Below the pieces are notes generated by a model that was given only the letters and a program-made list of their open reading frames with translations, ran no database searches and was not told the origin of the DNA. Positions 1-30,000 of a stretch of DNA of 64,000 bases are shown here, piece after piece. The stretch comes from Agrypnia vestita (taxonomy: Eukaryota; Arthropoda; Insecta; Trichoptera; Phryganeidae), in contig JADDOH010011248.1 of NCBI GenBank assembly GCA_016648135.1, forward strand, positions 1 to 64,000, written 5' to 3'. Position numbers and translations under genes: made by a program. Each line of letters opens with the position of its first letter. Position 1 is the first letter of the stretch.

Positions 1-390
1 TTTTCTGTACAAATCTACACCGATTGACCGATCTGACCCAAATATTGCATGCGTCTTCTTTAGGACCCGGCGGATAACAAAGACAACTTTTCCCCCCTCC
101 CCTTTGACCCCACGCCCTCAACTGATATATCTGCTGTACAAATCTACACCGTTTGCCGGTGTAGATTTGTGACCCAAATTTTTCATTCTTATTCTTAAGG
201 TCCCGGCGGAATACATAGGCCATAATTCCCTCCTGCATATCACATCCATCCCAGCTTAGATTAAATAGAAACATTGTTTTTATTAGAGTTTTTGCAAAAC
301 AATGAGTCTTTGGGTCCCTCCACAAAATTATTTTTGACTAAATTTTTAACCCGAGCAACGAAGGGTACGAACAGCTTGTTAGAAATAAAA
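1..390 (+). mobile_element. Helitron-like repeat (family A), partial copy
   Basis: It carries the same roughly 110-bp module as 42602-43283 and 63411-63793: CTGTACAAATCTACACCG, then a T/C-rich TCCCCTCCC stretch, then CCCGGCGG. It ends with a degenerate terminal sequence (ACCCGAGCAACGAAGGGT then ACGAACAGCTT). It enters from outside the window. Confidence 0.6.
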
Positions 391-2997: not shown

Positions 2998-3079
2998 ATG
3001 TATTTGAGCATAATTACAAGCCTTTATTATATTATAATTTCGTTTGCGATTTTAAATGTAACAGCTATCAATCTGTCAG
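2998..3079 (+). CDS. Naglu: NAGLU exon 1 (signal peptide)
   Basis: The ATG lies in an AAAATG context. It encodes 27 residues plus one base: a hydrophobic stretch ([17 protein letters not shown]) ending NVTAINLS. The donor is CAG|GTAATA. The translation would route the enzyme into the secretory/lysosomal pathway. Confidence 0.88.
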
Positions 3080-6000
3080 GTAATATATTATGTCGTTTTT
3101 GAATCGCAACGATCATTATATTATATCGGCGACTTTTAAATACTTGGTATTTTACCCTATTGCAGATTCCTTTGGAGATTTGGATCGTGTCCGTTCCAAA
3201 ACGCCAGCTGATGTTCAAACTAAAGCTGCCAGTGATGTTGTGAAGCGCATTTTACCAAAAAAATATGCACTTTTCAAAATATCAGTAGATACAGGTTATT
3301 TAAAAAATGGAAAGGACATGTTTTCGGTTGGTTTTCGAAATCAATTAGTAAATGCATTCAATCTTTAGTGCAGTTTTGAAGATATGTTATTAATAATATT
3401 ATTTTGTTTGAATTAAGTTTTTCTATGTATTACGTTGTAGCTCACAAAAAACAACGAAACTATTGATATTTTTGCCAGTAGTGGAGTGGCGGCTGTATGG
3501 GGTTTTCATTATTACTTAAAAAATTATTGTGGATGTCATATCGGGTGGCAAGTCAAACAACTCAACTTTCCCTCCCATTTACCAGCAGTAAACATAAGTA
3601 TTACTGCTAAAGACAGGTACGCATATTTATTTAAATACATAGTAATAAAAACCGTTATAATTTAATGATTGTACTCTTATTCTGGCATTTGATGTCAGAG
3701 CTTTGACTGGAGTTTGGTCTTTGCACGTAAAATTTGAATTTTGATTGACACAATGTGACGAGAAGACCATTCTACAGAAGTGACGGCGAACTTTTTGGGC
3801 TCGGCATATTAAAATCTTACAAAATACTTAACCCAACTGCTTTCTTTTCATACCTAGGTATGCTCTTGAGCACCGGAGTTGGTGCTGCGGGTTACGTGTT
3901 AATACTAGTGTACGGCCGTTTGGCATTTCGGGTTGAAGCCGGTTGTTTGTCTGCACTTTCCGATTCATAAATATTGAGGCATTGGCCACCTTGTCATCCA
4001 AAACGCTACCACATGAGTCGTAGATTTGCCATTATTGCTTTATAGGAACGGGAAATCAGAAAAATATCGAAAGGTGGGTGACCGAAAGATATAAAGTGGA
4101 TGGTGTTTTAAATAAATGTATTTTTAATGAAAACTTGTCAGTGGAGGCAAGACTAGCATATTAATACATAATAAAGTCAAGGTACCAACACTGAACAAAA
4201 GTAATATTACGATAGGAGATAATTCAGATATAAATGTGTCAAAAAACGAGCAACTTAATACATATATAAAAGCTTACAAAAAAAAACTTTCATTTCTAAT
4301 AAAAACTACCAAAGAAAATTATTATAAAAAAAATTTAGAGTGCAAAAAACGATAGTAAGAGAGTATGGAAAATAATCAATGAGATAATTGATAAAAAACA
4401 ATCAAAAAAAGAATATAAGTATCCTCTCACACGAAAACACTAAGATAAACTGCTCTGAAAATCCCCGTGAAGCGGCAGATATTTTTAATAATTTCTTTGC
4501 CAACGTCGGTAAAAATTTGGCAAAAAAAATTACAAATCCACAGATCACTGACACATCAATTCCAAAAACAACATATACAGAGAATAAATTGGAAAAATAC
4601 TTACCTACCACGATTGAAGAAATTGAACAAATTATTACATCTTTAAAAAGTGGATCAGCACCAGGCTATGACGGATACACGGGGAATATCTTAAAATTTA
4701 TCAAAAAACAAATATCTAAACCTCTAATGCATATAATAAACCTAAGTATAGAAACTGGAATTTTTCCGTCAAACTATAAACGAGCCATTATCTCTCCTAT
4801 ATTTAAATCTGGCAATCCGGAGGAAACTACTAACTACAGACCAATATCTTATATCAAATTTTGGAAAAATTATAGAAAAAATCGTTAAAAAAAGAATATT
4901 TCACTTTCTCAAAATAAACAAAATAATCCATAATAACCAATTTGGTTTCATGGAAAATAAAAATACGCAAGATGCAATAGCTCAATTAACAAATACTGTC
5001 CAAGAATCGCTAGACAAATCTTTTAAATGTATTGGTATTTTCGTGGACCTAAGAAAGGCTTTTGACAGTGTCTCACATAATAAACTAATATTAAAATTAA
5101 AATCTGTTGGTATAAAAGGTACAGCTCTAAGCTGGTTTCAAAGTTATCTACATGAAAGACAACAATGTGTAAAAATTAATGAAACTCTAAGTCAACCCCT
5201 AACCAGCGACTTCGGTATACCCCAGGGGACAGTTCTAGGCCCATTGCTATTTATAATTTACGTTAACGACATCTTCAACCTAAAACTGAACGGAAAAATA
5301 ATATCATACGCTGACGATACTGCGATCATCACGAAAGGAAGCGACTGGGACACAGTTAATACACAAGCGAACAATGACATAAATACGCTAAAATTATGGT
5401 TTGACAACAACTTACTCTCCTTAAATTCCGACAAAACTTACTTTATTCCTTTTTCAATAAAAAAACCGACAATCCCTTCAAATTTACAAATTATTGTACA
5501 TGACACCAACTGCAAAAAAACTAACTGCAATGACAAATGCTCAACCCTAGAATCTAAAAGAGAACTAAAATACCTTGGTGTAATAATAGACCAACACCTA
5601 AAATGGCACAGCCACATTAGCGAGTTGGTCAAAAGAATAAGGAAATGCATATATATGTTCATAAGATTGCGTAACACACTAACCATAGATAATTTAAAAA
5701 TGGTTTATTACGCTTCTGTCCATGCACTACTCCAATATGGAATCATTGGATGGGGAGGGGCGTATAATAACATCATAAACACAGTGAAAGTAATCCAAAG
5801 ATCAATTATAAAAGTAATATTTAAAAAAAGAAAAACCTTCTCTACACAATTACTTTTCTCTAAATTCCAAGTTCCAAAATTAGAGAATGTTTACAAAAAA
5901 ACGTCAATTATACAACTGATTAAAGAAAACATAACTGCTAAATTTGAAAATAACACATCATTAAGATTCAAAAATAATTTTAAAATCCCAAAATATAATA

Positions 6001-9000
6001 CCAAACTGTGTCAACAAAACTACATATATTTGGGCATAAAAAACTTCAATAACCTACCTACAGATATTAAGAAAATCGATGACTTACAACAATTAAAGAA
6101 AAAAATAAACCAACACTTTAGATCGATACAATTTGACAATGCATAACAAGACATATAGCTAAGGAACAAATAAGCCAAATCCAAAATAAACTAATAAAGT
6201 GTAAGCCCCTCACCAAGCACATGAGCAAGTCTCATTTTTGGAGAGGCGAAGCAATAAAATAAAATGTATCTAAGTAGAATGTAATAGACAAATGTATTAT
6301 GATTTAAATGTAGTTTTAATATTAAATAAAAAATAAATAAATAAATAAAAAAAATCCGTTTATGATGGAGTAAATAATGAACAAATTATGAGTGAAAGTA
6401 AAATTGATCTTATAAGGATAGCATAGCGGACAGGATTTAAAACGAATCACTTAGTTCGTTTGGTTAAACGAAACAATTCGATGAGAAGAAAATGGTAACA
6501 AAGATATATAACGCGAGTGATTCAATGAGAAGGAAATGGTAACAAAGATATATAATGTGAGTGATATAGGCACCATAAATAGAGGATCTCTGCAGAGGGC
6601 TTGATGTTATCAGGTACACCATACAGTAGGCGGTCCTGTTAGAAGCCTCAAAAATAACGAGTGTGCATGAGAAGATGTATGAACGCGGATGGGACGAGGG
6701 TTGTGTGTCAGGAGAGAAGAGTGTGGTATTTTATCATCTGCCTATCCCTGCAGAAAACGGTGTGGTTGTTGGTTAGTTAGTTTATATGTTTAAAATTGAG
6801 GAATCCAAAGATATGTATATATATATATATATATTTTTACGCTTCAACAGGCCAAGAGGCCCAATTACAGAAGCGAAACATATCACAAAACACCCAGCCT
6901 TGAGTAAATGACACAGATTAATTGTGACCTTTCGAACCTGTTGTGGGATGTCGAACCCTTGATGTGGGAAACTATTGTCATGCCCACTGGGCCACGAGGG
7001 TCGCCACTTATACGGTGATGTGGACAATTTTAATAACAATTGTTTTTTTTTTTAGGTTTCGTTACTATCAAAATGTTTGCACAACATCCTACAGCTTTGT
7101 ATGGTGGGGCATAGCAGAGTGGAGGCAGCACATTGACTGGATGGCCTTGAACGGAATAAATATTGCTCTCGCTTCACATGGCCAGGAAGCTATATGGGAA
7201 AGGGTTTACAAAAAACTCAATCTTACCGAAGATGAAATTAATCAGCATTTTGCTGGTCCCGCATTTTTATCATGGTACTATTACGTTCCCTCTTTCCTGC
7301 ACAGTAAACTCGCATTATTTGGAGGTGCATTAACCGGGACAGTATAAGATTTTGAAATTTTTTAATGTGGGCTGGGAAATTAAACTGACGAATTTGATAA
7401 TATGTAACAGAAAATACAACTAGCGAATTTGTAAATAAGTGGTTAACTGTGTCGGCGTTTACTTTGTGGAAATCCATTTTTAATGATAATGAACACAACA
7501 CAAACTTTGTTTTTTTTCAATATTTCCTTTTAACAAACAAAAACAAACAATACAGTTTCGTTTAATATATTCAGAAAACCAACACTTACAGACAATATTA
7601 TACACCAATCTTCACACCACCCAATATCACATAAAATGGCAGCATTTCACTCCATGATAACGAGATTAATACTAAGCACTAAGCAAAGAAAATTTTCAAA
7701 GATAACTAAACACAATACATACAAACGTCAAATGTGACGAGGATACTGCTACCATGGGGCAGGATTTACTAGGACCATTTTCGGTCTCTTTTTGATTCGT
7801 GAATTAGGGCATCATAACCAGCGAGTTGGTTAATTGACGGCTTTGGGTGGCCTGGGATGCCGGCGTAAAAATGTTCGGACAAATGTCGGATGAATTTCTT
7901 GATTGATGGGAGTCGTGCTTCTTTATGAAGTAGAGTAATTCTTGTCCAACTGGGCGCCCCGAGCGCGGCTCTGATTGCCCTGTTTTGGAGAATTTGGAGT
8001 TTTTTGATGTTAGATGGTGCAGTGTACCCCCATATTGGGGCCGCGTATGTGAGGATAGGCCTTAAAACGGCCTTGTACAGGAGGAGCTTGTTGTCAGTGG
8101 CCAGTTTGCTATTCCGGCCCATTAGTGGATACATTGCATAGAATGCGCATGTGGCTGATTTTATCTTGTCTGTAACATGTGGGGTGAATGTTAACTTTTT
8201 ATCTAAGGTGACGCCAAGATACTTGACGGTTTTTGTCCATGGGAGTTTTTGTCCAAACATCTTTATGCTCGGCTTGTGAGGCTCTCTACGTCGAGTGAAG
8301 AGGGTAGCTGCGCTTTTGGGGGGATTTATTTCGACGCTCCAGTCAGTGCACCACTTTTCGAGGAGGGTGGCTTGTTTTTGTACCTTTCGTATTTACATCT
8401 GCCTTATAAATTGAAATATGATACCTAAAGGAAGTGGTCGAGTTTATTACAATTATTATTGCAATTAACAAAAAGTTTTTGTAAAAGGTATCAATACTCG
8501 TCCCGCGCATAATGTTAAGAATTACTTTTCAAAATGCATATGGGTCGTTCTCTTTTTTGTTGTAGTTAAACTATCCCTGTCCATTGTCGTGACTAGCGGT
8601 ATTTAAAAATGTTTTTTTTTTTTTAGCGAAATTTAAAATAAATTCCATTTTAAGAAATATTATTAGTAAGTTGTATGGGTTAAGTAAAAATAAAAATAAA
8701 TATGGAGTTCTACAAATTAAACACAAAAACCATAAATAAAAAAATAAAAAAAATACAATTTAAAAATGTTAATTTTTGTTTTGTTTAATAATATAGGTTT
8801 GATGATACCTTCTCGTAATAATACGATCTCAAAAGTTTTAGAAACCGTAAAGAAATGAGGTTTAAATTGTATTTAATAAATAATAAAAAATACATTTGTG
8901 TTGTGACAGAGTTGTTTATTATTGTTGGGATTTTGTACCAATCAAGACAATAAAAAAGAGAATGACTCATATACATTAAATCTTATTAATTTTATGTGCA

Positions 9001-12000
9001 ACTTTCCTATAAAATTAGCTACACACAAAATAAAAACATTTATTTGTATGTTTATGATACAGCTATTGCCCTCGCCCCGAGTCATGACAGCTTTCCACAG
9101 GGAATAGCAAATGTCCGCTTTATTTTAGTACGTAATAAAATACATATTTCATAATTTTGTTTAATTTTTGGATGACAATCTTCTTTCATTATTATTGACT
9201 GTAACAAATAACTGTGTTCTTATTGATGCACCTCCATGCTTATTATAGTATTTATGTTTATCTTGCTTATTATTTGGTTAATGTATTTTCATTTGGGACT
9301 TCCTCTTTCAATTACATTTTTTAGTTCTTCATTGTGTCTGTGAATGTGTCTTATCCATTGGCCCCTTCAATTCTTGGTGGTGTCTTTTGTGGACCTCTCT
9401 TCCCTAGGTCCAGCTTATTCTTTTCATCCTTCTCCAGCATAAAGTCCTAAATGCTTTAAGTCTTTCTCTCTTCAGGTTTCACTTCTTTATAGTGTTACGC
9501 TCCAAATACATATGGGTTTCGACGAGTTGCTTTTTGTCTTTCTGTTTATTTGTGATTTGTTTTTTTTTTTATCTTAACCACTTGTGCGGTCAATCTCTTG
9601 GAAAAAAGTGGGTCAAAAAAAGCCACCCTTTATATCCATAATTTCCTTGTCCCGAAAATACTCGAAGTATTGTAAGATTGTTGCGTTATCATCAAACTGT
9701 AAATTTATAGCGGCAGTCTTGAGATAAGGAAACTTCAGAGGTGGTGCTGGATGATATTCTACATTTATTTCTACAAAATCATTAGGCATATCGACATCCT
9801 CATCTTCTGAGTCGTCAACATCACTATCATCGTCAGATTCCGAAAATTCCTCATCTTCCGATTCACTTATCAATACTTCCTCATCGCTTTCGTAATCTGC
9901 CATTTTGGGCAAGAACTAAAATAAAATAAATAGATAAAAAAATACGTAATACGTATACACGAAAGTTTGAATACACACAACACGATAATACAGCACACAA
10001 ACTAGCTGGGCGACAACTAGCCGGTGACTAATTGTTCTCGAAAGATAAAATTACGACACGTGTCACTCAACGCGCGCGATGAGTTCTCTAGACTGGTGGG
10101 GGAATGACCCCAGCTGGATTCGGACAAATCACTATAAAAAGTTTTGTGTACGATGTGCCCGAATCTAGTTTGGGCAAATCACTGTGTCAGCAAAAGACCT
10201 ACCCGAATTGTATTCGGGCAAATCACTCAAGAGGTTAAAGTTTGTTTTGTCATTTGTTAATCCGATTTGGTATCCAAAGAGCTTGTGACATTGTGATAAT
10301 ACAAATGTATTATTTCAGGCAGCGAATGGGTAACATCCGGGGCTGGGCCGGGCCGCTGAGCCCCCAGTGGCAGCAGCACTCCCTGATTTTGGAACACTTT
10401 GTCATAAAAGCTATGAATGATTTAGGGATAACACCGGTACTTCCTGCTTTTGCGGGTCATGTTCCCAAGGCATTTAAAAGGTAATGAATGTTTAGATCTC
10501 TTTTTTTTACGGTTCTGCATTAATTTATCCATTATTACATCCTTTTTTGATGATCAAATGTACAGGGTGTACTAGAGCTAGCAGCAGAAACTTGGCCGGT
10601 AGATTCCTGGCTATTTTATGAGTCTAAAATGTTCAAGCAACCATGACCTAATATCAATAGTTATGGAGATATGCAAAATCAAAGTTTGCATTTTTTTTCA
10701 ATATTTCTTACTTATTTTTTGCAAAAAGTTGAACTATCATTACAGTAACTTATATTAATTATGAAAAATTTATTTGCTTCAATAAAATTTAAATAAAATG
10801 ATAAAAACCTTGTAAAAAATAACTTTTTTCAATTTTTGAAAGGTTTTTATCATTTTATTCGACTTGTATTAAAGATAATGAATTTTTCATAATCGTCATA
10901 AGTTACTGTAATGATAGTTCAACTTTTTGCAAAAAATAAGTGAGAAATATTGAAAAAAAATGCAAACTTTGATATTGCATATCTCCATAACTATTGATAT
11001 GAGGCCATGGTTGCTTGAACATTTTAGACTCATAACATAGTCAGAAATCTACCTGCGAAGTTTCTGCTGCTAGCGCTGGTACACCCTGTATATTTACATG
11101 GATTTGAAAAAAATAGACAAGCATTTTAAAAAAAAACTTCAGAAAAATAATTTTATAGTGTAGTCTGTTTTTCTTGTAATGAAATGATTCAAATATTGTA
11201 AATATTGATGAAAATCTCTGTTTAGCAATCTGCTTCTAGAGTTGTCAAATAAAAAATTTAAAAACTCTATAATAAAACAATAATAATTCCAATGCACAAG
11301 CATTGCATTGAGTTTCAAAATAAAAATAAAGTATTAATTAAAAATTCTAACACGTTACAAAATATAGAGATCACTAAACAAAGCGAAAACTTTATTGGCA
11401 TTTTAAAATAATGGTGATCAAGTTTATTTCTGATTTGTAATGTTGATCGAATTAAACCAGGCGGAAGTTAAATTGAGTTTATTTAAAATATTGAGTGGCC
11501 GATATGTAAGTTTTTATTATTAACTTTTAAAATATCTTGCAGGCTCTTCCCTGAAGCGGCAATCTCTTCAATTGAACCGTGGAATAATTTCAAAGCTGAA
11601 TATTGCTGTCCTTTGTACTTAGAACCCACTGACCCACTGTTTGGTGTTGTCGGAGAACTTTTCTTAACTGAGGTATAACTCTTTATTTTTCACGTGTTTC
11701 GAAATATATTTCAAATTTCAATATTTTAAAAAGTTGTAAATATATATTCCTTTAGATTATTCTGGAGTTTGGCGCATCTCACGTATACAACAGTGATCCC
11801 TTCAACGAAAATAAACCATCATCGGATGATCCTGAGTTTTTGAAGAACGTTGGAGCTGCTATTTACCAGTCGATGACGAAAGTGGATCCCAATGCTATTT
11901 GGTAAATTAATTATTTGTATTCTTACTGCAGTTTAATTTTTGTGTATGTTTTTTTTGTCTATTTTGCACTGTTATATAGAGGATGAGCGCTGTTTGCGTA

Positions 12001-15000
12001 GAGTAAAAAAGAGTAAACTAGCAAACAAGGCACCAAATAAGTGTTTCATTTTAATTTTGCTAATGCGTTAGAAATTACTTTTTAATCCTCCTTCTATTTA
12101 AACGTCCCCATTATAAATAAATTTTTTGAATCATCCATCGACAGTCCCTATGTAAACTCGCGCGTCTACCAAAAATGCATTTTTGACTTTTTGAACCAAT
12201 ACGTATAAAACACTCTTCTTAATAATTTCTTACAAAAATTAAAAAAAATGTTTCTACATTTTCAAAATAAAAATTGACGTAAAAATAGACAAATACTGTC
12301 ATTTTGTACGTAAAGCTAAACTTCAAACAGCTCTCCTGTAAAATTGTTATTTTTTTACATAGGGACCGTCGATATAGTCCTTTGGGTTCCTAAAATTTGT
12401 CACAGTCACGTAAAGTATAACATTTATTAATATTTCACCCTTAATAAATCTAAGTGCAATTCAAGCAAGACGACTGGACACCTTTTTTGTGCTAAATAAT
12501 GCATTTTTGTTTCTTTCTATGTACAAAATCGCAAAATAATACCATTGCAACCAGGGAATGCAATCCCGATCCCGCGAGATCGGGATCCCGCGAGATCTCG
12601 AGGCAATTCACGAGGTCAATCCCGAACCGAAAAATCGGACGAGATTATCGGGATTGGTCAACATTTTTTATGTTTTGTATGTTTAATACATATGTCTATA
12701 GAGCTTTTAGTAAATACTTAAAACTTATGTTCATGTCACATTCAAATAATGAAAAAAGCTTTGAATAATATTTACTGTATTTTATCAACCTAAAATAGTA
12801 ATAAAAACTACTACTAACTCTACTACATTGACTGATTGATGCTTGGAAAAATGCCTACAAAAACTTTAATGCGATGATTAATAATGAACATTTTATTAAA
12901 ATTGCTGATAAAAAAAAACAAGGCGTTGTCGTTAATTGCTATTCAGCTCTATAAACAAAAAAAGAACACAAAAGTATTTGGGATCCCGCGGGATTGGAAA
13001 TTCTAATCTCGAGGGATCCTGAAAGGGCTATCCCGACTCGGGATTGCATTCCCTAATTACAGCCGCAGGCCGCATCATTAGATAATGTAGGCTGCATGCA
13101 GGTAGGGCCCAAGTGGTACAGGACAAATCACTTTATATTTTCCTATTTATATCTAAAAATAAATCTAAGTAATACATGTTGTTCATTCGCACACATTTAT
13201 CGAAGAAGACTAGGCATATTTCTGTGAAGCTACTACTGAAGGCATATGATGGACAAAATATTACAAATTAATTTACAAATATTGTGATTTTTTAAATATC
13301 AAGAGCGTATTTTGCGCGTTTAGGTTGTTGCAGAGCTGGATGTTCTTGCACGAAGTGTTTTACTGGACTTCTCAAAGAGTGAAAGCACTGCTCACTTCCA
13401 TTCCTGTGGTGAGTTGGTACCGTCTACTGCCTGGAAATGGAGCAACCGGCTTTGCAACTTATTATCTTTAATATTTTTCATTTATTTATATCTAAAAATA
13501 AGTCTAAATAATACATGTTGTTCATTGGCATACATTTACCGAAGAAGACTAGGTATATTTCTGTAAAGCTACTTCCAATGAATTGATGGATGAAACATTA
13601 CATATTTGACAAATTAAATTACAAATATCTCGATTTTTTTTTAATATGAAGAGCGTATTTCATGCGTTTAGGTTGTTGCAGAGCTGGATGTTCTTGAACG
13701 AAGCGTTTTACTGGACTTCTCAAAGAGTGAAAGCACTGCTCACTTCCATTCCTGTGGTGAGTTGGTACCAGTTTCTGCCTGGGAATGGAGCAACCAGCTT
13801 TGCAACTTATTATGCAGCTTTAATATTTTTCATGATAACAATGCTTCGCTTTGTGTATCATATTTAAGCTTTGGATAATTTTGCATCCCTATCACCACTA
13901 TGAAAGTTTAATTATACGATATTTGAATTAAAAGTATTTATTATATTCCTTAAATCTCTTGCATTAGTGTGAGTGGTACCATCTGTAACACGTAAATTGT
14001 GTAGTGGAATTCCTTTTTTAAAACTACTCCATTGGCCACCTCAGTACCACACTGACAGTCACAAGGAGCGGTCGTTTCTATGTTCAATATTTTTTTTTTA
14101 AAGATACGGTGACTGCAAGGTCACGATACGATGGCCACAGACTTAAATCAATTTAATATAAATTTAGATGAGGATTCGGAGTCCGATACAGATGGCCATA
14201 TTTTATCTTATTGATTAAAATGAATTATGAGATTTTGAAACCATTTCACTATAATTATACCTGCTTATATATAATTAATTTTAAACTAACTATAACCCAT
14301 CAAAAATGACGTGCTTTTGTTATATATTTCATCAGCCAGTTAATGCTGGGAGAAAAGCGCTATCTAGAGTAAAGTCTTGATTACGTTAGTGATGGACATT
14401 ATTAAAAAGAGAATTATGCTTTATTTGCTTCTTATCTACCTATTATATTAAAGTTGTAAGGTACTTTCCGCGATATATCCACCAATTTTTAACATTTGCC
14501 GTTTTTTGACTTTTTTTTGCACATATTTACCGTTTTCTCCGCGAGTATACATGATAATCACATTTTTTTTTTAAATACTAAGGACAACGCTTTGCCACGT
14601 GACATTTTATTAAAAAATATTTTCTTCTTCTTCTAATGTCGTTTCTATGCCTATTAGAGTGAAATGTCGTTTTTACTTCACATCTTTGCGAGTTTTTCGA
14701 AATTTTGGAATTTGAAAAATGATTATGATTACGAGTGATTTCTAATTCATCATTTTTTTATTCTTATCCTTAAACACTTTTTAATAATCTTTTACACGTT
14801 TTCGACCTTTTTTGGACAAAGCCGTTTTTTGGGGTTTTTTCGGCTTTTTTTCGCACGTTTTTACCTTTTTCTCCGCGACTATACACGATAATCACAATTT
14901 TTAAAAAGAATGCAAAAGACAACTCTTTACTGCGTGTAGTTTTTCAAACATTTATTTTCTTCTTCTTCTTTTTTAGTTTCTACGCTCGATGGCGTAAAAT

Positions 15001-18000
15001 TTCGTTTTCACTGCTCATCTCGGTGCTTTGCGTTCAGATTCAAAATAAAAGTAAGTCGTTTTGTGCCGAATCCGGTCATCTTTTTTTCTTACATACATTA
15101 ATTTTGCGTAGCTTTCTTTCTCGCCGAAATACAAAAATAAACCCCCGTTTTCGGTCCGTTTTTGCGAGGGCGCCGTTTCTGCGACTGTAGGCGTAGTTTT
15201 AACGAAATTAACAGTTGAAGGCGCCAGCTTTTGCGCATATTTTTAAAAATTTTCACCCCCTCCACTTTTCTCGGTACGCAACCAAAGTCGAAATTTCCGT
15301 TTCTTTAATAACTCGGTCAAAAAAAATTGCACAGACACGCAAGTGGCATCACCGCGTGGCGCTCGACGGTACGCATTTTTTCTATTAAAAATAATTACTT
15401 CCAGACGCGTGTCCAAGCAGCGGCAATCTTTTTAGTGCGTTTTTTCGGTGTTTTTTATATTTTTGTATACTGCTCAGCGAAGGGGAGGCCTACATTCACC
15501 GCCGATATCTCAATCGATAGAGGTAGAGTGCAGCTAACGAGTTTAGCAAAAAATATTGTCCCAAAATGAAACGTTTTAGCGTGACACAAGCTTACATCTG
15601 GATTTCACCATTTCAGCCGTAGCTTCGCAGCAGTAAGGCCAATTTCAAATCTAAAAAATACGATTTGTAGTGCCTAGCTTTTCACAGATGACCCTGTTTT
15701 TATATTTTTTCTATCTTTATTTTTAGGAAAGTTATAAGGGAAACAATTCGATAAACGGTGAATTATATTGTAGATATTCAACTGTTTGTCCGGTCGTTAT
15801 GAACATTATAAATATGAGCTATTCTTAAATTTCTCTTCAGTCTCGGGAAACCTCCCGTCATGCGCGCAGCATGCGCTCAATTTTTCAATATTTTTACGTA
15901 AATTCAATAAATTTGTATTTAAAAACCATGCAATGGAACAGAGAGTGACGTCACCTTTAAATTAACGAACCCGATCTGTATTTATAATATATGAAGTCTT
16001 TTTCATACAAAGCCGTTTTTAAGTCTTTTTAAACTTTTTTCGCACATTTTTACTGTTTTCTCTGCATGTATAAATGACAAACACAATTTAAAAAAAATGT
16101 AATAGACAAGTCTTTACCGCGTGACAATTTTTATTTATTTAATATATGATACAAATACAGTTCTTATATATTTACATATCAGATTAACATTTTTTTTAAA
16201 TACTTTATAGTCATATAGGACCTCATCAGTGAAGAGAAGCTCTTGAGTCTGATGAGGGAGCCACAGTTCTTATTTCTTATTATAATATATAGGTAATATA
16301 TACGAGTTATTTATTAATACGGTAAAAAAGGTAAATTGATAATGAAAGTATTGGAGTTATTTTAACAATTTTTCGTCTTTACTTCATATCTTTGCGAGTT
16401 TTACGACGCTTTGGAATTTTATACTTGATTGTAACATCGCGTGATTTATTAAACACCATTTTTTTCTTTTTATCCTTCAACGTTTTTTCATCATTTTTTA
16501 ATGTTTTCAGCTTTTTTTGACAAAGTCGTTTATGTAACTTTTTTTCGCACAAATTTACGCTTTTCTCTGCGAGTATGAAATATAATGACAATTAATTGGA
16601 GACTTAGCTTTTATGGTTATTTATTAAATTATAACTTGAGTCTTTTGAATATTGATAAAACCCTTTTCAACAACAACAAACAACTTTTCCACCCTTCAAA
16701 GTCTTCTCTGTTTTTATTTAAATCGTCTTCACGAAAATAATAGCGCGTGATTTCGATCCATTGAATTTTCATTCATTCATTGATTATTACCAAGGAAGTA
16801 TTCCTCATTTGTTTCCGTAAATATAACTATCATCATCATTACCATATTTTTACTTGGAATGTTAAAATATTAATTTAAGCAGAAAATAATTTTACATCGC
16901 TTAAAATGTTCCAAATATTATATCTTCAATTCGGTTATTTTATGGAAATATCCTCAAATATTAATTGTATGTAAAACAGTTGCACTAAACGTTTTATTCA
17001 GAAATATTTCTTATATATTTCTGTTCAAATAATTTTACTCATCATCATCGATTTCTTCGTCTTTTGCACTCACATTGAGGATAAAATGCCGCGCGATGTC
17101 GATGCTTTTAACGTTCAATCGTCGTAACATTTATTACTTTTTTTTGGTTTTTATTTTTTTGTTTATTTTTTTTTGTTTGTTACAGAATCACGTAAATGTA
17201 ACTATTGTTTTCAAGGGTAATATTTCTAAATGTCCTTTACGATTATATGACATTTTATTTTATTTTATGCAATATAAAAATATATTTATTTTAAAACATT
17301 TCTTCTGAATTTAACTATTGTTTTCAAGGGTATTTATTTCTAAATGTGTGTGATTAGATGATAAAATTTAATGAAAGTGTGGCTCTTCTTATTATTAATA
17401 TTATTCTCCACTTATTCCATTTTTTCTTACACTGTTTTCAATTTTTAATAAAAAATATTTTTCAGTACATTTACAATTTTTTTACAATACAAGTTATGAG
17501 CAAAAAAAAATTTTTTCATTCGATAAATTCAATAAATTTTAATCAATATTAAATTCAATAAATATTTATTAGAACATCTTCCATTGCATGCCGAGAGTGA
17601 CGTCACGTTTAAGTTAACGAGCTCGATTTGTATTAAAATGCGTGTATTTGAAAGTTTTTTTATGAGATTATATTTAAAAATTGAATATTTTTCAGCTATT
17701 TTCTCAGGGATCTCTCTTTTACAGTATTACATTATTTTTTTCTCCCTTCGTTATTTTTTGACAGATTTGAATTTTGAAAACTGTTTTTTAATTTTATTTT
17801 ATACTTTTTTTGGAAAAGCCATTTTTTTAAAAACTAAAATATTTTTTTATAAAAAGGCGAAAAAGATTTTATTGATATGTTAATATTTTCTTTGAAAAAA
17901 GAAATTTTTTTAAAATTCTAATTTGGATACATAATCTTTCACATATTCATTAATTTTTTCCATTTATGACCTAACCTAAACTATAATAAATAGTTTTCTT

Positions 18001-21000
18001 TTGCGCACGCACTGACAAATCTGTGAAAACACTCCAAGCTTCGACGGTACGTTTCGACCGTGGTTTCACGGGGAGACTTTTTTTTTCTGACATTCACGAT
18101 CTGTAGAATTTAACATTACCTACCTTTCCACATTTTTAGTTTTTTTCTATCTTTATTTTTAGAAAAGTTAGAAACGATTTCCATTTTTATGGATGAACTT
18201 AGACATCTGTTGGTTTTTTTTAAAAGCTCGAGTTTTCGATAAATTTTTGATGTTTAGTTTTTTATCTATAACTTCTAAAAGCGTCAGCCTATTTTAGTCA
18301 TCGATATGTCAATCGATAGAGAAATTGTGCCTCTATGGAGCGTACTAAAAATAAATATTATAAAATTACAGACTTCAGCATTACGTCCGCTTTCATCCGA
18401 GTTTTGCAGTTTTGGCTGTAGCTTCGCGGCGAATATTAAAATTATTATTGCAAAATATACAATCTATAGAATTTAACAGTATCTACCTTTGACTATTTTT
18501 ATTTATTTTTTATCTTTATTTTGAGAAAAGTTATAAAATAAAATAAATTAAATTTCCATCTTCATATATATTTTAAAACCTTTTTTAAATAAAGATAAAA
18601 AATAAATAAAAATGCAGAAAGATAGACAACGTTAAATTATACAGACTGTATTTTTTGGAATAGTAATTTAAATATTCCCCGCATAGCCACAGACAAAACA
18701 GCAAAACGCGAATGAAAGCGGACGTAATTCTAAAGTCTGCCATTGTAAAAAAAATATTTTTAGTAGGTTCGACAGAAGCACTATTTCCCTATCGATCGAG
18801 ATATCGACAACTAAAATTGGATCATGCGTTTAGAAGTTACGGCTTAAAAACATAAGGACATAAATTTACTTAAGACAAAAACTTCTAAAAAAAACATCAG
18901 ATGTCTAAGTTGATCTATAAAAATGGAAATAGTTTCTAACTTTTCTAAAAATAAAGTTACAAATAAAACTAAAAATGCAGAAAGGTAGATAATGTTAAAT
19001 TCTACAGATTGTATTTTTTAAAATAAAGCTTAAAAAAACAAAAATAGATGTCTCTTTAGTACTATAAAAATGGAAAAATATATTTTCTTAAGTTAAATTG
19101 CTTCCACATTCTTAGATAAGGTTAGGTTAGGTTGGGTTAAGTTAGGTTAGGTTAGGTTCGATTAGGTTAGGTTGTGTTAGGTTGGATTGTGTTAGGTTAG
19201 GTTGGGTTAGGTTGTGGTTTTTGGGTTTTTCATGGATATCTCCGTAAAGCGATGCCGATTTAGAAAATTTAAAAAGTCCCAGATGGGTGTAGCCCGTCTG
19301 CGCCTTTTAAGCCGCGCACCCACTGACATCACCCGTCACACTAGATCTTTCACAACTCGGTCATTTATCATCCCATTTAAATTTCGAAAAATACCACAGA
19401 TAGCTCTCTTCTTCTTCTATCGAATCTTATAGTACAATCTTCCAAACGCGCAGTCCGATCTTCGCGATCGGGACGTCACCGGAAAGTGTTTACCGTCAAC
19501 CTTCTTCTTCGTTACTCAACCAGCAGTGAGTCCGCCTTCTTTTCTTCGCTACATAATCATCAGAGAGTCTGCCGCCAGGCTAATTTGCATGCGTAGTCAT
19601 GCAACGGGCACCTAGTACCTTATTATTATATTATATCACATTATTGTTTGAGCATTCTGGTATCATTGGTGACGGACATTGTTACATAGAGAATTATATA
19701 TTTTGATTAATGATTATTACCAATGACATATGCGATATAGTAGATAATGGATTCACTTATTAGTTTTAATTTTCAATAAACTGAAATATTAAAAAAAAAG
19801 TTGCTGTAATGATAGTCCAACGTTTTATAAAAAATAAGTCAGAAATATTGAGAAAAAATGCAAACTTTGATTTCGCCTATCTCCATAACTATTGATATCG
19901 GGTCATGGCTGCTTGAACATTTTCAACTCATAATCAAGGCAGAAATATAGTCCTGCGATGTTTTAATGTTTTCTAAATAACCCTGTATATAATTTTTTTT
20001 AAATATGTTATATTAAGAGTGGATAAAATACTTTATTTTAATTCTTTATTCAATTTCATAGTATAAGTATACAGAATTAGGTATTTATTTTAAAAATACA
20101 AACAAGAGAAATGTATGCTAATGTAAAAAAATGTGATAAGCATGAATTATACTGACTCGTTTACTCATCTCAGTGTGGTTATTTGGAAACACTATGGATT
20201 TGTCTACTTTCATAAAGATACTCGTGGATGGCATACCTTGTCAGTCTTTACTACCATCATCATTTTGCTAGTTAGTTTTACTATGTGTGTCTGGTTGGTG
20301 CATTATGCATTAAAAGAAAATGTCAGCGGTCGAATGAAATCATAATAACCTTTCAAAAATTAAAATTTTTTTTTTTTTACAAGGTTTTTATCATTTTATT
20401 TGACTTTTATTGAAGCCAATGAATTTTTCGTAATCAATATAAGTTAAATCAAATATAAGTTGTAATGATACATCAAATTTTTGCAAAAAATAAGTGAGAG
20501 ATGTTGAAAAAAAAGCAAACTTTGATACTGCAAATCTCCATAACTATCGATAATAATATTAGGTTATGATTGCTTGAATATTTTCGATTCATTATAAAGG
20601 CAGAAATCCACCTGTAAAATTTTTGCTACTAGTTATGAGACACCCTGTATGTATCTTTAAAACAATAATTAACACATTAAACTTTCAGATATCTTAAAAA
20701 ATCCGAGTGCGCGATCTTTAAGCCGACATACCTCACTTCGCGATTCGTATTCGTTTTGCGGTTTCGCTGTCCTATTTTAATATAGGAGTTAAAATAGGGC
20801 CGCAAAACAAATACGAATCGTGAAGTGAAGTGCCGGCTTTATACTTTCTATGATTTTTAGAATTGCGTGCGTTCGTGTGCAAAATATTGATGATTTCATC
20901 AATATATTGTCTATGCTTTGAGAAATGCGCACATTCGTGGACAAAATATATTTTCAAAGATAATATTCACTGAATCTGTAAATTCATTGATTGACATGTT

Positions 21001-24000
21001 TTCACTGCTCCCACTCTGCCCGAACGGGTAAAATACATTTCTACTAGTCAAAATATAGTGTATGGAAATACAAATTCGCTGTAACATATATACGTATTAC
21101 CCCAGTATACCCAGAACAGTAGTTTATCTCCGGCCTGTCGGCGAGTTATTAGCCTACTAATGCGTTGACGCTAGGGTTGTCACTTTACTCGTAGCGTCTG
21201 AGATTCTGACGCATAAGGTAGACATGAAACCCGAAAATGTCTGTAATTAGTATACCTAGTTTCTGCACTTAAATTGCAAGAACGCTGATTAACATCAATG
21301 TAGACTTTTAAAAACTCAGTCTTTGTGATAATCAACACACCTTTTTAGTAAAGCACCACAAACATAAAAAAAGGCATTTTTTTCAGGAAACGCATTTTTT
21401 TTCTAAAGCGGCGGCTGCGAGCGCGAATGGCACCGAAGGCACGGCCCCTACTGCTGCCGCCTTATGCCCCATATTTTATGTCAATGTGTGCGTCACAGTG
21501 CGTGCGTACACGGCGCCGAGCACGCACGCACACATTCTAATGGGTAGCGGCCAGTTTGTATGAAGACGTATTACTGTTCTTAGTATACTGTGGTATTACT
21601 TTATCTAAATCTGCTTCAAAAATAAGTATGTATACATACTCTATGAGAAATTGATTTAATTGTATCTTTTTGACTTAAAATACTTTCAAATTTTATTTCT
21701 GAAACTAATTTAGGCTAATTATTGTCATTTCAAGGAAGAATAAGATTAGAAAATTTTGATTATCTTTTCTGGAATTTACCCAGGCATTTTGTAATTCTCA
21801 TCTCAGAATTGTGATTACAACTCGGTATTTACTGCTCTTTGCTTTTATCGTGCCATCTTTGTTTTCAACGATTATTAAATTGTTTCTCTAGGTTATTACA
21901 AGCTTGGATGTTCATCGATTCTTATTGGACCCCGATTAAGGTCCATTCGCTTCTCACCAGCGTTGCTAAAGTAAGATACATATTTCTAAAAACCATCGCG
22001 GGTCGATTTAATTATATTACTTATTATTTAGTTGTTTAATACATTTGACTTATTTTTTAAATTTGTTTGTTTTCAATTTAATACTAAAATAGTTTTTAGT
22101 AGGTTGCACTAAATGTAGACATTATTAAGATTCAAATCAATACTAAAATAGTTTTTCGTAGGTTAGGGAACTTACCCATACTACATGACCCATTCAGGGG
22201 GGGAGGGGGATCTTCAAAATACCACGCTTGGTCACAATGGGGGGCGGGGGGCTTAAGTTTTTATCACGTAGTCAATATTCTCTAGGGAAATCTCGCTGTT
22301 AATAAAAATAACAGGACTTTTCTTTAATTAAGTTCTGGTTACAATATATTTTGACATAAGTTTTATCTTGTTAATATTTTTTCCATTTGTAATTATAGGT
22401 ATGCATGCACTCTTGCCGTCACGCAGCAAGCCTCATAATAATAATGACAAATATTAGCCAAATATATATTTTTAACTTTTTGTTAGCAAGAAATGATTCA
22501 AAACCATATTTATGATTTACTACGTGAAAACCATATTTATGAATTACTACGTAGAGGGAGGGGGGAGGGGTCTTGGAATATACTACACGTGGTCACCGAG
22601 GGGGGGGGGGTTAAAAATTGCAAAAAGTGGGTCACGTTGTATGGGTATGTTCCCTTACAGTAAATAGTATGTTGTTCATATATAAAATAGTAGACATTAT
22701 TAAAATCAAATAAATACTAAAACCATTTTTTAACAGGTTGTAAAAAATCTAGAAAATATAAAAATTTAAATTAAGATGATGTTATTAATTAAAAACTCTA
22801 TAATTCCATTTTAGATTCTGAATTTGTGAATCTATATCCTCATTTTACATATATATATTTTCATAAGTGTAAAAATTGATATTCCGAATTTTAAGAGTTG
22901 GTATCAGGGCACTTGGAAAACACTTTTTTTAAACGGTACGGCAGCGCCCTCTTCAAAAACGCCTTGGCAAGGCTAGGATTACAGAAAGTTAGAGTTATAT
23001 ATATATATATATTGCCAGAAAATACGAACCAATAAATTAAAAAGGCTACTTAAACAGGCTGCCGCAAACTTTTTTTTTTTAATATACAGGGTGGAAAAAA
23101 TCAGTGGGCCCTGAAGGGAAACCACTTTAAATCCTTAAGTCCTTTAATCCTTACTTAAAGGAAATATTCCTTTATTTTTAAAAAGAAACAAAACTGCATT
23201 CAAGGATTTTTTTAAATTCGCTTGCCTCACCCGGGAATCGAACCAGCTAAAAATTCAAAAAATAAACACTCGCTATTTTTTCTACTAATCGATTGGATCA
23301 ATGTTCAGGATAAAATCTCTCAAATAATTTTTTTATTTTATCATCAATTCTAATACGAAGGACACGTATTATGTAACATTATTACCTAGCAAGATATTGA
23401 TACCTGAACTATTTGTATATTTTTTCGAAAAATCTGTGAATGCAGTTTTGTTTCTTTTTAAAAATAAAGGAATGTTTTCTTTAAGTAAAATAATCTATCT
23501 TAAGGATTTAAAGTGGTTTCCCTTCAGGGCCCATTGATTTTTTCCACCCTGTATATTAAAAAAAAAAAGTTTGCGGCAGCCTGTTTAAGTAGCCTTTTTA
23601 ATTTATTGGTTTGTATTTTCTGGCAATTTATGCCCTGTTTTACGACCTTTTTGGCCAGATAGGTCATAAAAACATGGCATAATACCCAAGAAAACACAAA
23701 CCAGAAGATTCTGAGCGGCCGTTAAAATCTTAGAACATTCTTAGCCTTTTTAAGTTTAAAATAATTCAAAATTGCTTAAAATTTATTTTTGCTCTACTCG
23801 CTGATCAATTACTTGACAATGACACCCATTAATATAGTTGATGGTTAAACCTGGTTTTTCATTTTGCATATTGTCATTTTCCTCTTCCTCTTCACTACTC
23901 TCTTCAATTGATTAAGGATTTCATGGTACTATTCAGTCAATTCTTCCATTCAAGATCGCAAATACTCTTCAACGCTAGTATGGTGCACGTCTGTTATTCC

Positions 24001-27000
24001 CTGTTCTTCAGTATCCTCTCACTAGCTCTATAATTCTATGAACCTATCAATTTAGACTAGGTTTAGAAAATCAAAACTAATACTTTTTCAGTAAAAATAC
24101 ATTTTTATTCATAAAATAACCAAAAAAAATCTCATTTAGCGAAATCGTTAAACCACTACGGTACTTATCAGTAATTAATAAAATGTAATTTATTTAATAA
24201 TGTTTTTATATGTACGTGCTGAGAACACAATTTCTGGATGTCGTCTTAAAAATATTGCTAAGAATATATACTGGTCTATAATAGGAATTAATAAATTGAA
24301 AATAAGAATTTTTGGGCGTTTTCTAGTGTATATGCTAAATAATTCTAAAGAATATTGTATATGCTTTAAAAAGAATATTGCCTGATATTCCATTATAAAA
24401 ATATTGAGGTATCATTATCAACTGCGAAATCTATGTCATGGGAAGAACTATAGATGTCTCTAGCCTAGTCTATTAAAATATATGAAAGAAAATGATTTAG
24501 AACATATATACAATATTTAAAAAATTGATAATGTGTGCATGTTCTTACGGTGGAATTGTGAATGTTTCATTTTGTAAAGTGACCACTTAAGCCAGCTCAT
24601 ACAGCCCTGAGTCACTCTATAACGACTTCCATACATGTTTCCCATATAAATACATTCGTCTCTGGGATTTATATAATTTATAATTTAATTTAGTATAATT
24701 AATAATGTCACCACAAAATTATTTTGCTCTTTTTAAAGAAGTTATTAAAGCACGTACGGCTAAAAAAGCAAAATTTTACAAAAAATTAATAATTACAAAA
24801 GTGGCGAAAACAAAGTTCATTTTTATTAATAATGTCGCCACAAAATTATTTTGCTCTTTTTGAAGAAGTTTAGGTTTGTTTGCTTGATTTGACAATTATG
24901 AAAAACATATTCATCATCTCGGATAATCATCAGTTATAATTTAATTATTTGTTGAATACAAATCTCACAAGCATGATTCCATATATACATATTATATTGC
25001 ATGCTTTATGTAGTGTGTGTTAAAATTTGATTTAGAGGCCATTTAATTCATTAAGGTTTATGTTTATCAATATTTCTGCATACAAACATGTTAACAATTA
25101 AATATTTTAATCAGGTATTATTTTATAAACAATCATTTTTCATAGTAATTCAATTTTTATGACTACTCTCATTAATTTTCGAGAAAATGTGATGAAAAGG
25201 ATTTGAAATCAATGTTCCTTCTTTTTTAAATTTCTTTTTGGAGGTCCTATCAAGATTTATCAGTCTGAGTCTTTTATTGATTTAAAACTCTAAAATATTG
25301 ATATGGCATGTTATTAGGTACTTTAACCCCTTAAGAGTCTTTGATAATACGTTTATACCACTTGCTATAAGGATCATCTTCCATATAAAAAGTATTGAAA
25401 AATAATCTTTATTGCCAATTTTATGTTTTACAGACATTCTCTGGTATATGGGCTTACCTCTTTTTGAATTTCGCGGCAGTCTTTTCATAAATTTACGAAG
25501 AAAATAAAGTTCATAAATGAATACTCGAAAGTGGTAATTACGTTCTACCTCCGCGCGGATATGCAATTGTCGAGTTACGTTTTCGACAGCTTTACTTTAG
25601 ACAGTGTTATTGTGCATTTCATTTGTTAATTGAAGACAAAACATGTAAGTAATAAAATCTTTGTAACATTATTATTTATCTTTATACCACAAAATACTTA
25701 TTTTAATAATTTTATAATACTTTTATGATTGATAAAAAAATGTCTCTCCAGCGTGAAGTTTATAGGTAAAACTAGTCACTTTTAAATAAATAAAACAAGC
25801 CATTACTCTGTAAATAATCCCGCGTATTTCCATATAGATATATGTATTATTTTTTATAACTTTTGCATTTAGACATTTTATTTTACTTTTGTCGCAAAGA
25901 TATTATTTATGAAGGAATTCCAGATTATATAACAATAATGCTCTTATAAATTCATATTATTTTGATCGGAAAATGGATTTATTTTTTGTATTTTTCCCTA
26001 TTTCCATACTTATTCTCTCATATCACAGCATATTATTTTTCTTTATAATATTTTAAAAATTATTAATGCACATTTTTTTATGCAGATGATGCCACGCAAC
26101 TTGAATATTGAAAATTAATGTTCTGAATGATCTCGCAGAAATTTTGGAGTTTATCAACGATGAAATGGCTGTTGACTCTGATGTCGGAGAGGATGAAGAT
26201 GCTGAGGACAACATGCTGGGTCCTCAGTCCTCGTCGACGAGCACTCTGCGTTCCAATGAGAGTGCAGATGAAAGTAACAGCACTCAGAACTTCACATTAT
26301 TTTTTATTGTTAAATATGAATGATTTTTGCTTGTGTAATAAAGTTTCTGATACTAAATGTCTCCATTTTTATGTAATTTATTTATTAAACCTTCTTATTT
26401 AAGAGATAGTTCATAATTAATCACAATTTTCATTAGAAAAAAAAACAGGATTAATCATGGATATAAAATGGTAATACGTATTACCAAAGAATCAATAGTG
26501 ATAATTTGCTTCTTCAGACATTCTCTGGTAAAACGTTTTACCACCATATATTTCCTTTTCCAAAAGAAAGATTGAAAAAAAATCTTCTAAACCATTGAAT
26601 ATAATGACACATAACGCATATAAGTATTAAAAAAATAATTTCAAAGTTCCCCAGAGCCTTGCCCCTTAAAGGGTTAATCTGTCATATTCCGGTAAATTGG
26701 GAATTACTGAGTATGCTGATAAGCTCGCATTGTGTTAACAAGTACCTTCTTGCATTAATGCCATCATTACCACCACCACCATTAAATGGATTTGTATTCA
26801 GGGAACAATATGACAGATTGGGGGACCTACATACAAACTGTCTTATATGGAGAGTATTTGACACGACTTTACTCGCAACAACTGGCTATTTATTTAATTA
26901 GCGAGCATGCTTTTGGCTGTTCGTTGCATCTATTGTAAATGAAATTTGATAGAACCGTTTGCTTAACAATTTAATAAATATCGTTACAATTGAATTGCAT

Positions 27001-30000
27001 GATCGAAGACAGGGATACAGGAAACTGTGAGATCTTTCAGGACAATCTTGTAGAACGTTCACCATATATAATTGTTCAAATAATCGATTTCACCCGTCAT
27101 CAGGAAATTTGACTAAACTTTGAACCGCGCTGGGGCTTGTGGTGGTCCAGCTTGATGTGTCATGATGATCACCGTCATCACCAGACTGCTTAGGGGAGAT
27201 GGGGTTGCGCATGTAGGTCCTTTTGCATCTCGGTAGGAGCCTAGAAATAGATGTATGTGACTCTATTAAATTAATTGAACTTATTCATGTAATGTTACCA
27301 CGGCAATCGAGACTTTGAGGATTGACCATGGTACAGAGACCACATCAGGTACGTGATTAACTTGATATCACACATGTAAAATCTTCCTCAATAACGCCAA
27401 TTTCGTATGATAAATACAATATTTGTCGACTGTTGTTTTTATTACTTGTGCGGATCCACGATAGCTAAATTGGGCGATTATAGCTGTTATCGCATTTTCT
27501 AAGTAAATAGAATTTCGTGTCGATAACTGCACATTTTTAAATAATCACAATGTTGGATGTGCAATTGTTTGTAGTTTGCAAACATGTAGTTTTTTTATTC
27601 AAATAATTATGTTGAATGTAAAATTTATTAGGCTAATTTATGTAATGCTTGTAATTCCCTTTACTAGACTACCCCCTAACTAGAGTCTTCGCTTAATTCA
27701 TCTCGAAAACGTATCTTGGTAGTTGGTTTCTATTCAAATGTAATTTATTTGGTTTTAATATGAAAACACGGATCTAAAAGGATTTGATTTCCACTTAACA
27801 CAATGAGCTTAGGGATTCTAACCATAAAGGCGAGACATGGGCGTACAGACACCAAATCCAGTCAGCGAGCCCAAATTTGGGGACTGTCTGACCCCATTCT
27901 GGTGAGACCGTGGTTGCTAATTTTTCCATAAATAATTTATAAAATATATTTATTTATTAGTGCATAAAATATATGCATAAAAAGGGTATGTGAAAACACT
28001 GGAAATTAATTTAGTTTAGGTTATTACCAAAGAAAGTCCTGGATACGAGTTTCAACCGTTCTTAATTTTATAGTCACTAAATGTCTCCTGAATATTTCAA
28101 ACACTTATTATTGTACTGTACCTTAATTTGCACTAATTAATGCAGTTTCTCTTGTTTTGATCACATCTGGTAAACTCCGTTCAATGTCCGCGTGTAGAAA
28201 CTTCTCGCCCCGGTATTCTTCCTTTATTCACTTTCGCTGGTATCACTGGTAGTTACACTGCGCTTGTTTTCTCGTTAATATTGTGTGTTGTAATATCACG
28301 AATCACACCGGTTTACGCTACGGAGATGTCGCACTTGTTGTCCTCACGAAATTAATTGACTGATCCCGCGTTGTGTGATGCCTTTTATAGATAAATTTTT
28401 TAATCCAAAACACATATGCAAATCGTTTAATTATTTAATAAATATTGACAAAATCAGAGTGACAAAACAAAATTACATATTTTGCTTTCCTGTAAAGTTC
28501 GAAATAATCACTATCGCCCTTTTGGCTTTCTACCCTTGATATATATTTTTTGTACATACAAAAGAGAAGTAAGGTAAGGTCCTTTACACTTTGTATGTAT
28601 TGCTTTTTTATTTATGTTATTATATTACTGATGCGCCTATTTATTTTCAGGGTAAAATGTTGATTCTCGATTTACAATCTGAGCAGTGGCCACAATACGA
28701 CAGGTTTGAAATGTATTACGGCCAACCCTTCATCTGGTGCATGCTGCACAACTTTGGTGGGACTTTGGGGATGTTTGGAGATTCACAGAGCATTAACACG
28801 GTTAGTTTATCGTTGTAGCAATGGATATTTTTTTTATTTATCCTGAATTTAAATACATGTATATAAGGAAGCGACCCACTCATCTCACTAGGATGAACCT
28901 GTGCCGAGATAAACGGCTTTACAACAAAATAAGGACAAAATATTATATTGCCGGCTCTCGTAGCCTAGTGGCCATACCACTGGCTTCTTATACCGAGGGT
29001 TCTGGGTTCGATTCCCCGTGAGGTCACAATTAATCTCTTTTTTTGTTTTGTTTAATATTTATTTACTTTTTTGATACTTATTACATAGATACATATGCTA
29101 AACTGCATGTATTTTAATTGCATGATTTTTACAATTGATACATGATAATTTTAAATTTATGTAGGATTAGATACATAGCTTTAATATATATTCTTTTAAC
29201 TTAAACTTTTTTGAAGCCAATGGAGTTTTTTTGTCTTGCATCATCTCAATGAATTTTTTATCTGATTTATTAAAGATTCTTGGCGCAATATATTCTCTTT
29301 TTCTTTCATCATACACGTGTGATTTACTCAAGCTTGTAATGTAACTGATACTGTATTGTAAATATTGATCAGCTCTCACCAAGAGCTTACAGAAATTGGT
29401 ATCTAGATTGTCAATCAAAATTCAAACGGTTGTTTTTCTTTATTTTAATGAGGAGATATGCAGTCGCCATTTTTACTGTAAACTTATGATAAATATCTCA
29501 TTGATTCAATTTACACTTATGATTTTTACACTTTAAGGACGTCTACACTGCCAGATTGAATCCTAACAGTACAATGGTCGGAACAGGATTAACTCCCGAG
29601 GGAATTAACCAAAACTACGTCATGTATGAATTAATGTTGGAATCAGCTCTTAGAGAAGAGTCTCTGGACGTAGATTCTTGGGTCAGGAACTATACGGTTA
29701 GAAGATACGGAGCCGAGGATGAAAATGTAACAATGGCATGGAGCATTTTAATGGTTAGTCCACAATAGACATGAAGTAATTTTTAAAATTATCTGATAAA
29801 TATTCAGCGCCATATTTTTGATTTATTTATTCACAGCATTGCGTTGTATGGAGTTTTGTCTAAAATATACAGGGTGTACCAGAGCTAGCAGCAGAAACTT
29901 GGCAGGTAGATTCCTGACTATGTTATGAGTCTAAAATGTTCAAGCAACCGTGGCCTAATATCAATAGTTATATATAATACAATATCAAAGTTTGCATTTT

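Follow-up and report, generated by a model that had tools for sequence, protein, structure and literature searches.

How can a gene that carries one coding exon in three copies still specify a working enzyme? The question is raised by a stretch of 64,000 nucleotides from the caddisfly Agrypnia vestita (contig JADDOH010011248.1, positions 1 to 64,000; the window), in which the NAGLU gene has three candidate forms of its eighth coding exon, 8a, 8b and 8c. We consider it probable, at roughly 0.7, that these are alternative versions of one NAGLU coding exon, made by exon duplication, with one used per working message.

Exon 8 copies and the reading frame

The original prediction listed the three copies below and described each as open, bounded by AG and GT, and entered in phase 2 and left in phase 0. 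On re-reading the sequence, the coordinates, frames, splice sites and phases proved exact. The copies and the exons that matter most to them, all on the + strand, are as follows.

11756-11901, +, exon 7; holds E328 in FNEN, and its phase 2 donor would join one exon 8 copy
13324-13408, +, exon 8a; 85 nt, 28 aa
13672-13756, +, exon 8b; 85 nt, 28 aa
21892-21970, +, exon 8c; 79 nt, 26 aa
28651-28800, +, exon 9; its phase 0 acceptor would serve 8a, 8b and 8c alike
29538-29753, +, exon 10; holds E458 in TPEGI

As had been claimed, two of the 85 bases distinguish 8a from 8b, both of them non-synonymous, and 8c is more diverged and two residues shorter; the 8a/8b changes are H/N and V/A, and 14 of 26 amino acids of 8c are identical to 8a. 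The claim that a single exon position exists in three copies also stood. We ran a 28-column profile of exon 8, built from relatives only (window rows excluded), on six-frame stop-to-stop open reading frames of at least 8 aa. It recovered exactly three copies (E = 1.6e-14, 8.5e-14 and 3.2e-7) and no fourth in the six frames of the 64-kb window, the next hit having E = 0.28. When the 801-aa model was compared with the window by tblastn, with up to 60 pieces reported, exons other than 8 were found once each and the remaining pieces had E of at least 3.3, which rules out a second copy of the NAGLU gene in the window.

Models containing one copy, 8a, 8b or 8c, encode 801, 801 and 799 aa, respectively, without an internal stop. 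Two copies in one message were predicted to break the frame, and every pair tested was indeed out of frame, with the first stop at residue 417 for 8a+8b and at 403 for both 8a+8c and 8b+8c. Inclusion of all three copies is also out of frame (first stop at residue 446), as is the skipping of all three (residue 363). Hence only one-copy messages encode the enzyme. The sequence thus accounts for exclusivity of the copies in the protein, but it does not by itself imply that splicing is exclusive.

In the scheme that we propose, exon duplication would have given rise to 8c long ago and to 8a/8b more recently. Splicing would connect exon 7 with a single exon 8 copy, and this copy in turn with exon 9. 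Messages that carried more than one copy, or none at all, would hit an early stop, and would presumably undergo nonsense-mediated decay or yield no enzyme; the reading frame would in this way enforce one copy per functional message.

The gene itself, NAGLU, belongs to glycoside hydrolase family GH89. It is intact on the + strand at 2998-36837, with 16 coding positions and GT-AG junctions throughout, and the model with 8a or 8b has a single terminal stop. The three Pfam domains NAGLU_N, NAGLU and NAGLU_C matched over nearly their full profiles (family accessions, in numerical order, PF05089, PF12971 and PF12972), and the human NAGLU structure 4xwh matched the window protein with E = 1.6e-212. 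Among the 120 matches listed of 4235, NAGLU of Arctopsyche grandis (Trichoptera) showed the highest identity (60% over 96%), and the top match by bits was a 1143-aa cricket protein (49% over 80%). E328 and E458 align with human E316 and E446, given as the catalytic residues in PMC13207710. With its three-domain architecture and both catalytic glutamates, the gene resembles the rest of the GH89/NAGLU family, from which it differs in having three versions of segment 360-387. This segment lies between E328 and E458, in agreement with its predicted place between the two glutamates. The other exons of the NAGLU model are these.

2998-3079, +, exon 1
3166-3326, +, exon 2
3441-3616, +, exon 3
7056-7274, +, exon 4
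10319-10480, +, exon 5
11543-11672, +, exon 6
31611-31697, +, exon 11
31770-31960, +, exon 12
32103-32223, +, exon 13
33371-33464, +, exon 14
33546-33716, +, exon 15
36623-36837, +, exon 16

Constraint, splice sites and rival accounts

Copies 8a and 8b lie within a tandem repeat.

13144-13833, +, tandem duplication; period 348 bp, 2.0 copies (Tandem Repeats Finder), which yielded 8a, 8b and flanking intron

Among the 223 aligned flank bases outside the exon and splice sites, 32 are unlike in the two copies, and 20 more columns have gaps; compared with the 2 of 85 differences in the exon, this gives a Fisher p of 0.0018. The acceptor stretch differs at 3 of 20 positions, and none of the 12 positions after the donor differs. 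There are no synonymous differences in 17.7 synonymous sites, and 26 of 28 amino acids are identical. If 8a and 8b were both neutral, the probability of two or fewer exon changes would be 0.0002. These comparisons make constraint on at least one of the two copies clear and constraint on both likely; a state in which one copy is unconstrained is weakly disfavoured.

It is rather unlikely that only one or two of the copies are used, with the 8a/8b duplicate recent and redundant, one copy decaying, and splicing of both tolerated as noise. Such an account would fit the mere two residues that separate 8a from 8b, at positions that also vary among insects, and the weak acceptors of both copies (see below). 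One neutral copy is compatible with the counts (P = 0.05 for all exon sites, 0.14 for non-synonymous sites). Yet frame, donor and acceptor have been kept in both copies while the flanks diverged by 14%, and constraint on 8c would be left unexplained.

Between 8c and 8a, synonymous divergence (pS) is 0.91 and non-synonymous divergence (pN) 0.34; the seven gap placements tried give ranges of 0.81-0.91 and 0.32-0.45, respectively. The third base has changed in 8 of the 11 codons whose amino acid is unchanged (Met and Trp excluded). From these values, 8c is most probably a coding exon of long standing, maintained by selection on its protein, and not a decaying copy. Its split from 8a also appears old, since 8a, 8c and the Arctopsyche exon are roughly equidistant (16/28 residues identical for 8a and Arctopsyche, 15/26 for 8c and Arctopsyche, and 14/26 for 8a and 8c).

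Copy 8c might instead be a fragment that arrived later from another NAGLU gene, or what is left of a duplication of the whole gene, and have gained its constraint there; this origin strikes us as improbable. It would account for the high divergence of 8c, with synonymous sites near saturation, and for the isolated position of 8c in 15 kb where inverted repeats like those of mobile elements occur; moreover, a second and distinct NAGLU protein (P0085) is known from Zophobas morio, and paralogues probably occur in insects. But no copy of exon 7 or 9 lies beside 8c, and its strand, phase, splice sites and place between 8b and exon 9 are all right, a rare outcome for a random landing. An assembly artefact, in which the nearly identical exons 8a and 8b are two haplotypes or a misassembled repeat, is very unlikely, because a 348-bp tandem unit with the flank differences and gap columns given above exceeds usual heterozygosity and is unlike a duplicated haplotype, the low divergence is confined to the exon and donor, and 8c cannot be concerned.

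We also scored splice sites, using a matrix built from the gene's own 14 constitutive sites (constitutive scores were leave-one-out). The donors of 8a and 8b (3.92 each) and of 8c (5.83) fall within the constitutive range of 0.44 to 7.99. The acceptors score 1.13 (8a), 2.89 (8b) and 3.82 (8c), against a constitutive range of 3.14 to 14.66; those of 8a and 8b lie below all 14 constitutive acceptors, and that of 8c lies below 13 of the 14. Weak acceptors are usual for alternative exons. The best donor/acceptor pair of the three copies belongs to 8c.

What might keep the copies apart during splicing was considered separately. The 8a-8b intron measures 263 nt and the others 1422, 8135 (8b-8c) and 6680 nt, lengths that make crowding, and hence steric exclusion, improbable as a cause. 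Incompatibility of splice types is ruled out, all sites being GT-AG with U2-like donors. No clear candidate for docking/selector RNA pairing that would link the copies was seen among 25 of the 87 inverted pairs in 11902-28650; one weak inverted pair (I22, 70%) touches the 8a/8b duplicated unit.

Several observations weigh against alternative use of three exon 8 copies. In the interval 11902-28650, 58 donors and 75 acceptors score at least as high as those of 8c. No transcript was found for any exon 8 copy, and among the 120 relatives listed of 4235 and the 111 partial proteins, none is similar enough to come from the same species. For Arctopsyche grandis, the closest annotated caddisfly, the listing has a single form, which carries no isoform label. 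The fit of one neutral copy has been given above, and the lack of synonymous differences between 8a and 8b could reflect gene conversion. For its part, 8c is without the nearly invariant proline of the SVP turn (P383 to A; P0005 numbering), and a protein search with its segment returned one candidate, none at E of 0.001 or less and none related over the segment. In simulations, which favour constraint on 8c, an unconstrained 8c matched the joint pattern in 0 of 3000 runs at each of five rates, but constrained runs also matched it rarely (a fraction of at most 0.0020 of 3000); the simulation therefore fits poorly, and the weight rests on pS versus pN.

The exon 8 segment in the fold and in beetles

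An AlphaFold model of the Arctopsyche protein (P0005; 45 sequences) had a predicted template modelling score (pTM) of 0.86, with block predicted local distance difference test (pLDDT) values of 89-96 over residues 351-390. In this model exon 8 corresponds to residues 357-384 and comprises the end of strand 355-359, a helix (361-365), a loop and a second helix (372-379), stopping before strand 387-392. In triosephosphate isomerase (TIM) barrels, the loop after a strand faces the catalytic side. Together, model and alignment show exon 8 to encode one beta-alpha unit of a TIM barrel, its loop lying close to the active site. The residues that distinguish 8a from 8b, and the two that 8c lacks, map to the end of the short helix and to the loop. 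The invariant residues Q359 and W361 (P0005 numbering) are kept in 8a, 8b and 8c. P0004 and P0080, both over 1000 aa, were omitted from the alignment behind this view of residue conservation, and P0080 also from the alignment used afterwards. An exon 8 loop shorter by one or two residues is also seen in P0118 and P0039 (Clastoptera arizonana and an unnamed protein). Each version of exon 8 would supply the strand end, the beta-to-alpha loop that faces the catalytic side, and the helix after it. The isoforms would then differ, as forms of one enzyme, in a loop close to the active site, and activity may be altered.

Beetles offer a comparison. The 120 listed relatives and 111 partial proteins include 31 named beetles. 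Labels were set by eye on exon 8, giving 9 of type A (VHSFFFWT..RAKALLTSVPK), 12 of type B (YSS.YW....KV.SF.TSVP) and 10 of A spacing in neither set. Neighbouring residues are equally alike in A-A, B-B and A-B comparisons (0.768, 0.768 and 0.754); the corresponding values for exon 8 are 0.774, 0.592 and 0.456. The A/B contrast, scored in 751 windows each 28 residues long, peaks at residues 360-387 (0.206), the other top-12 windows all overlap this peak (0.195-0.205) and the best window clear of exon 8 reaches 0.068, a maximum that is partly built in because the labels were drawn from exon 8. For the same reason, permutation of the labels (0/2000) is descriptive only.

Tribolium madens (A) and Zophobas (B) belong to one family; 101 of 123 flanking residues are common to both, but 9 of 28 in exon 8, and T. 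madens shares 20-21 of 28 exon 8 residues with three A beetles of other families. A quick tree made without exon 8 roughly tracks beetle families, and the A/B label changes four times on it. The isoform names shown among the 120 listed relatives, which do not depend on these labels, are X2 for 6/6 labelled A and X1 for 4/4 labelled B (chance 1 in 210, calculated by hand). Two 'lgn' proteins with the B motif, P0065 and P0076 (806 and 801 aa), are encoded on contigs 2476 and 2963 bases long, too short for this gene's introns, so B is probably present in spliced RNA. A spacing census of 230 proteins gave 175 of A spacing, 16 of B spacing, 4 of neither and 35 not covering the exon; the 16 comprise the 12 of set B, P0065 and P0076, and two without the motif (P0181 and P0197).

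A label-free scan (window starts 141-700) gave a mixed picture. Across 30 beetles, window 360-387 ranks 16th of 560, and the eight lowest correlations printed all overlap exon 8. Counting the other way, the same window ranks only 67th of 560 in the 23 Cucujiformia alone. The largest single-pair deficits occur at windows starting 583-590, away from exon 8, and in a control of 30 Hymenoptera, windows starting 372-378 are also low. These analyses used a protein set clustered at 90%, with representatives only, in which no single beetle species showed the two exons together. The partial protein P0126 was excluded from the contrast scan, tree and label-free scan, and P0077 and P0084 from the tree. 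P0166, a doubtful gene model whose exon 8 stretch is unrelated, was excluded from the spacing census, exon 8 profile and 8c scoring. On this evidence, there appear to be two exon 8 versions in the NAGLU of Cucujiformia, apparently in one gene.

Is 8c the caddisfly counterpart of the beetle B form? Its profile scores are 31.1 bits with other relatives, 27.8 with A and 24.7 with B. Its best pairwise score is with Arctopsyche (76), followed by 74 for the ant P0070 and three A beetles, and its mean pairwise score is 68.2 with A, 54.2 with B and 54.0 with 174 others. Orthology of 8c with type B is unsupported, as 8c scores nearer Arctopsyche and the A forms, and the caddisfly and beetle sets are therefore probably separate events at one slot. 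The two cases are alike in that beetles, too, have versions of the same segment in an apparent single gene, crossing the beetle tree; they differ in that 8c is probably not an orthologue of B. Judged from annotated proteins, the beetle pair most likely arose by independent duplication. The broader idea that the active-site loop is a hot spot of independent mutually exclusive exons in insects (8c and 8a/8b in the caddisfly, A/B in Cucujiformia), with isoforms tuned to substrates or conditions, is tentative, and we lean slightly against it.

Surroundings, known exon sets and significance

Other features of the window include several that, by eye, resemble mobile elements. Intron 3 holds a 464-codon open frame like a non-LTR (long terminal repeat) retrotransposon reverse transcriptase (4752-6143, +; YADD motif), and intron 15 two frames like reverse transcriptase pieces, on the strand opposite NAGLU (34062-35077, -; YADD). 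Just downstream of NAGLU are frames like a broken mariner-type transposase (37132-38150, +; HDNAPSH). The introns around 8c contain large imperfect inverted repeats, like terminal-inverted-repeat elements, at 18081-19076 and 23007-23631, with arms of 309 nt at 78% and 133 nt at 98% complementary. Two cysteine-rich frames (39188-39349, -, and 40585-40839, -) look by eye like whey-acidic-protein (four-disulfide core) domains. A satellite-like array occupies 54719-55615 (period 75 bp, 11.9 copies, 97% matches), and at 49907-51064 lies a degenerate array (117/229-bp periods) in which TTCTAGAA-like words abound.

The classic examples of mutually exclusive exons (MXEs) come from ion channels, muscle proteins and Dscam. 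Among the papers listed, judged by titles and the starts of abstracts, we found no report of MXEs or alternative splicing of NAGLU in insects, and broader searches listed no paper on NAGLU as an MXE gene either. Two studies catalogue tandem-duplicated MXEs, one in human (PMC5740500) and one across human, Drosophila and C. elegans (PMC9741552); the latter also describes convergent tandem exon duplication within one gene family between phyla. In the former, 87% of human MXE clusters are embedded in a folded structural element, although this is not obligatory. Of the marks of MXEs given in that catalogue (PMC5740500), those that can be read from sequence and model are found in 8a, 8b and 8c: they are neighbouring internal exons of similar sequence (85, 85 and 79 nt; 26/28 and 14/26 aa identical), they have the same phase, no in-frame stop and GT-AG sites, every pair, the triple and the skip are out of frame, and exon 8 falls in a strand-helix-loop-helix of the TIM-barrel domain in the P0005 model. 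The NAGLU copies thus resemble catalogued MXEs in being homologous, neighbouring, of similar length, of the same phase, frame-shifting when included jointly, and embedded in the fold. They differ from them in being predicted here from sequence, and in lying up to 8.1 kb apart (8b-8c).

Loss of NAGLU in people causes Sanfilippo syndrome B. If alternative use of 8a, 8b and 8c is real, a housekeeping lysosomal hydrolase would have an active-site loop swapped by splicing, apparently twice in insects, and the copies would form an uncommon natural series of loop variants. The set offers ready-made isoforms for assay. It also illustrates how nothing more than the reading frame can restrict each working message to one copy, even for exons 8 kb apart.

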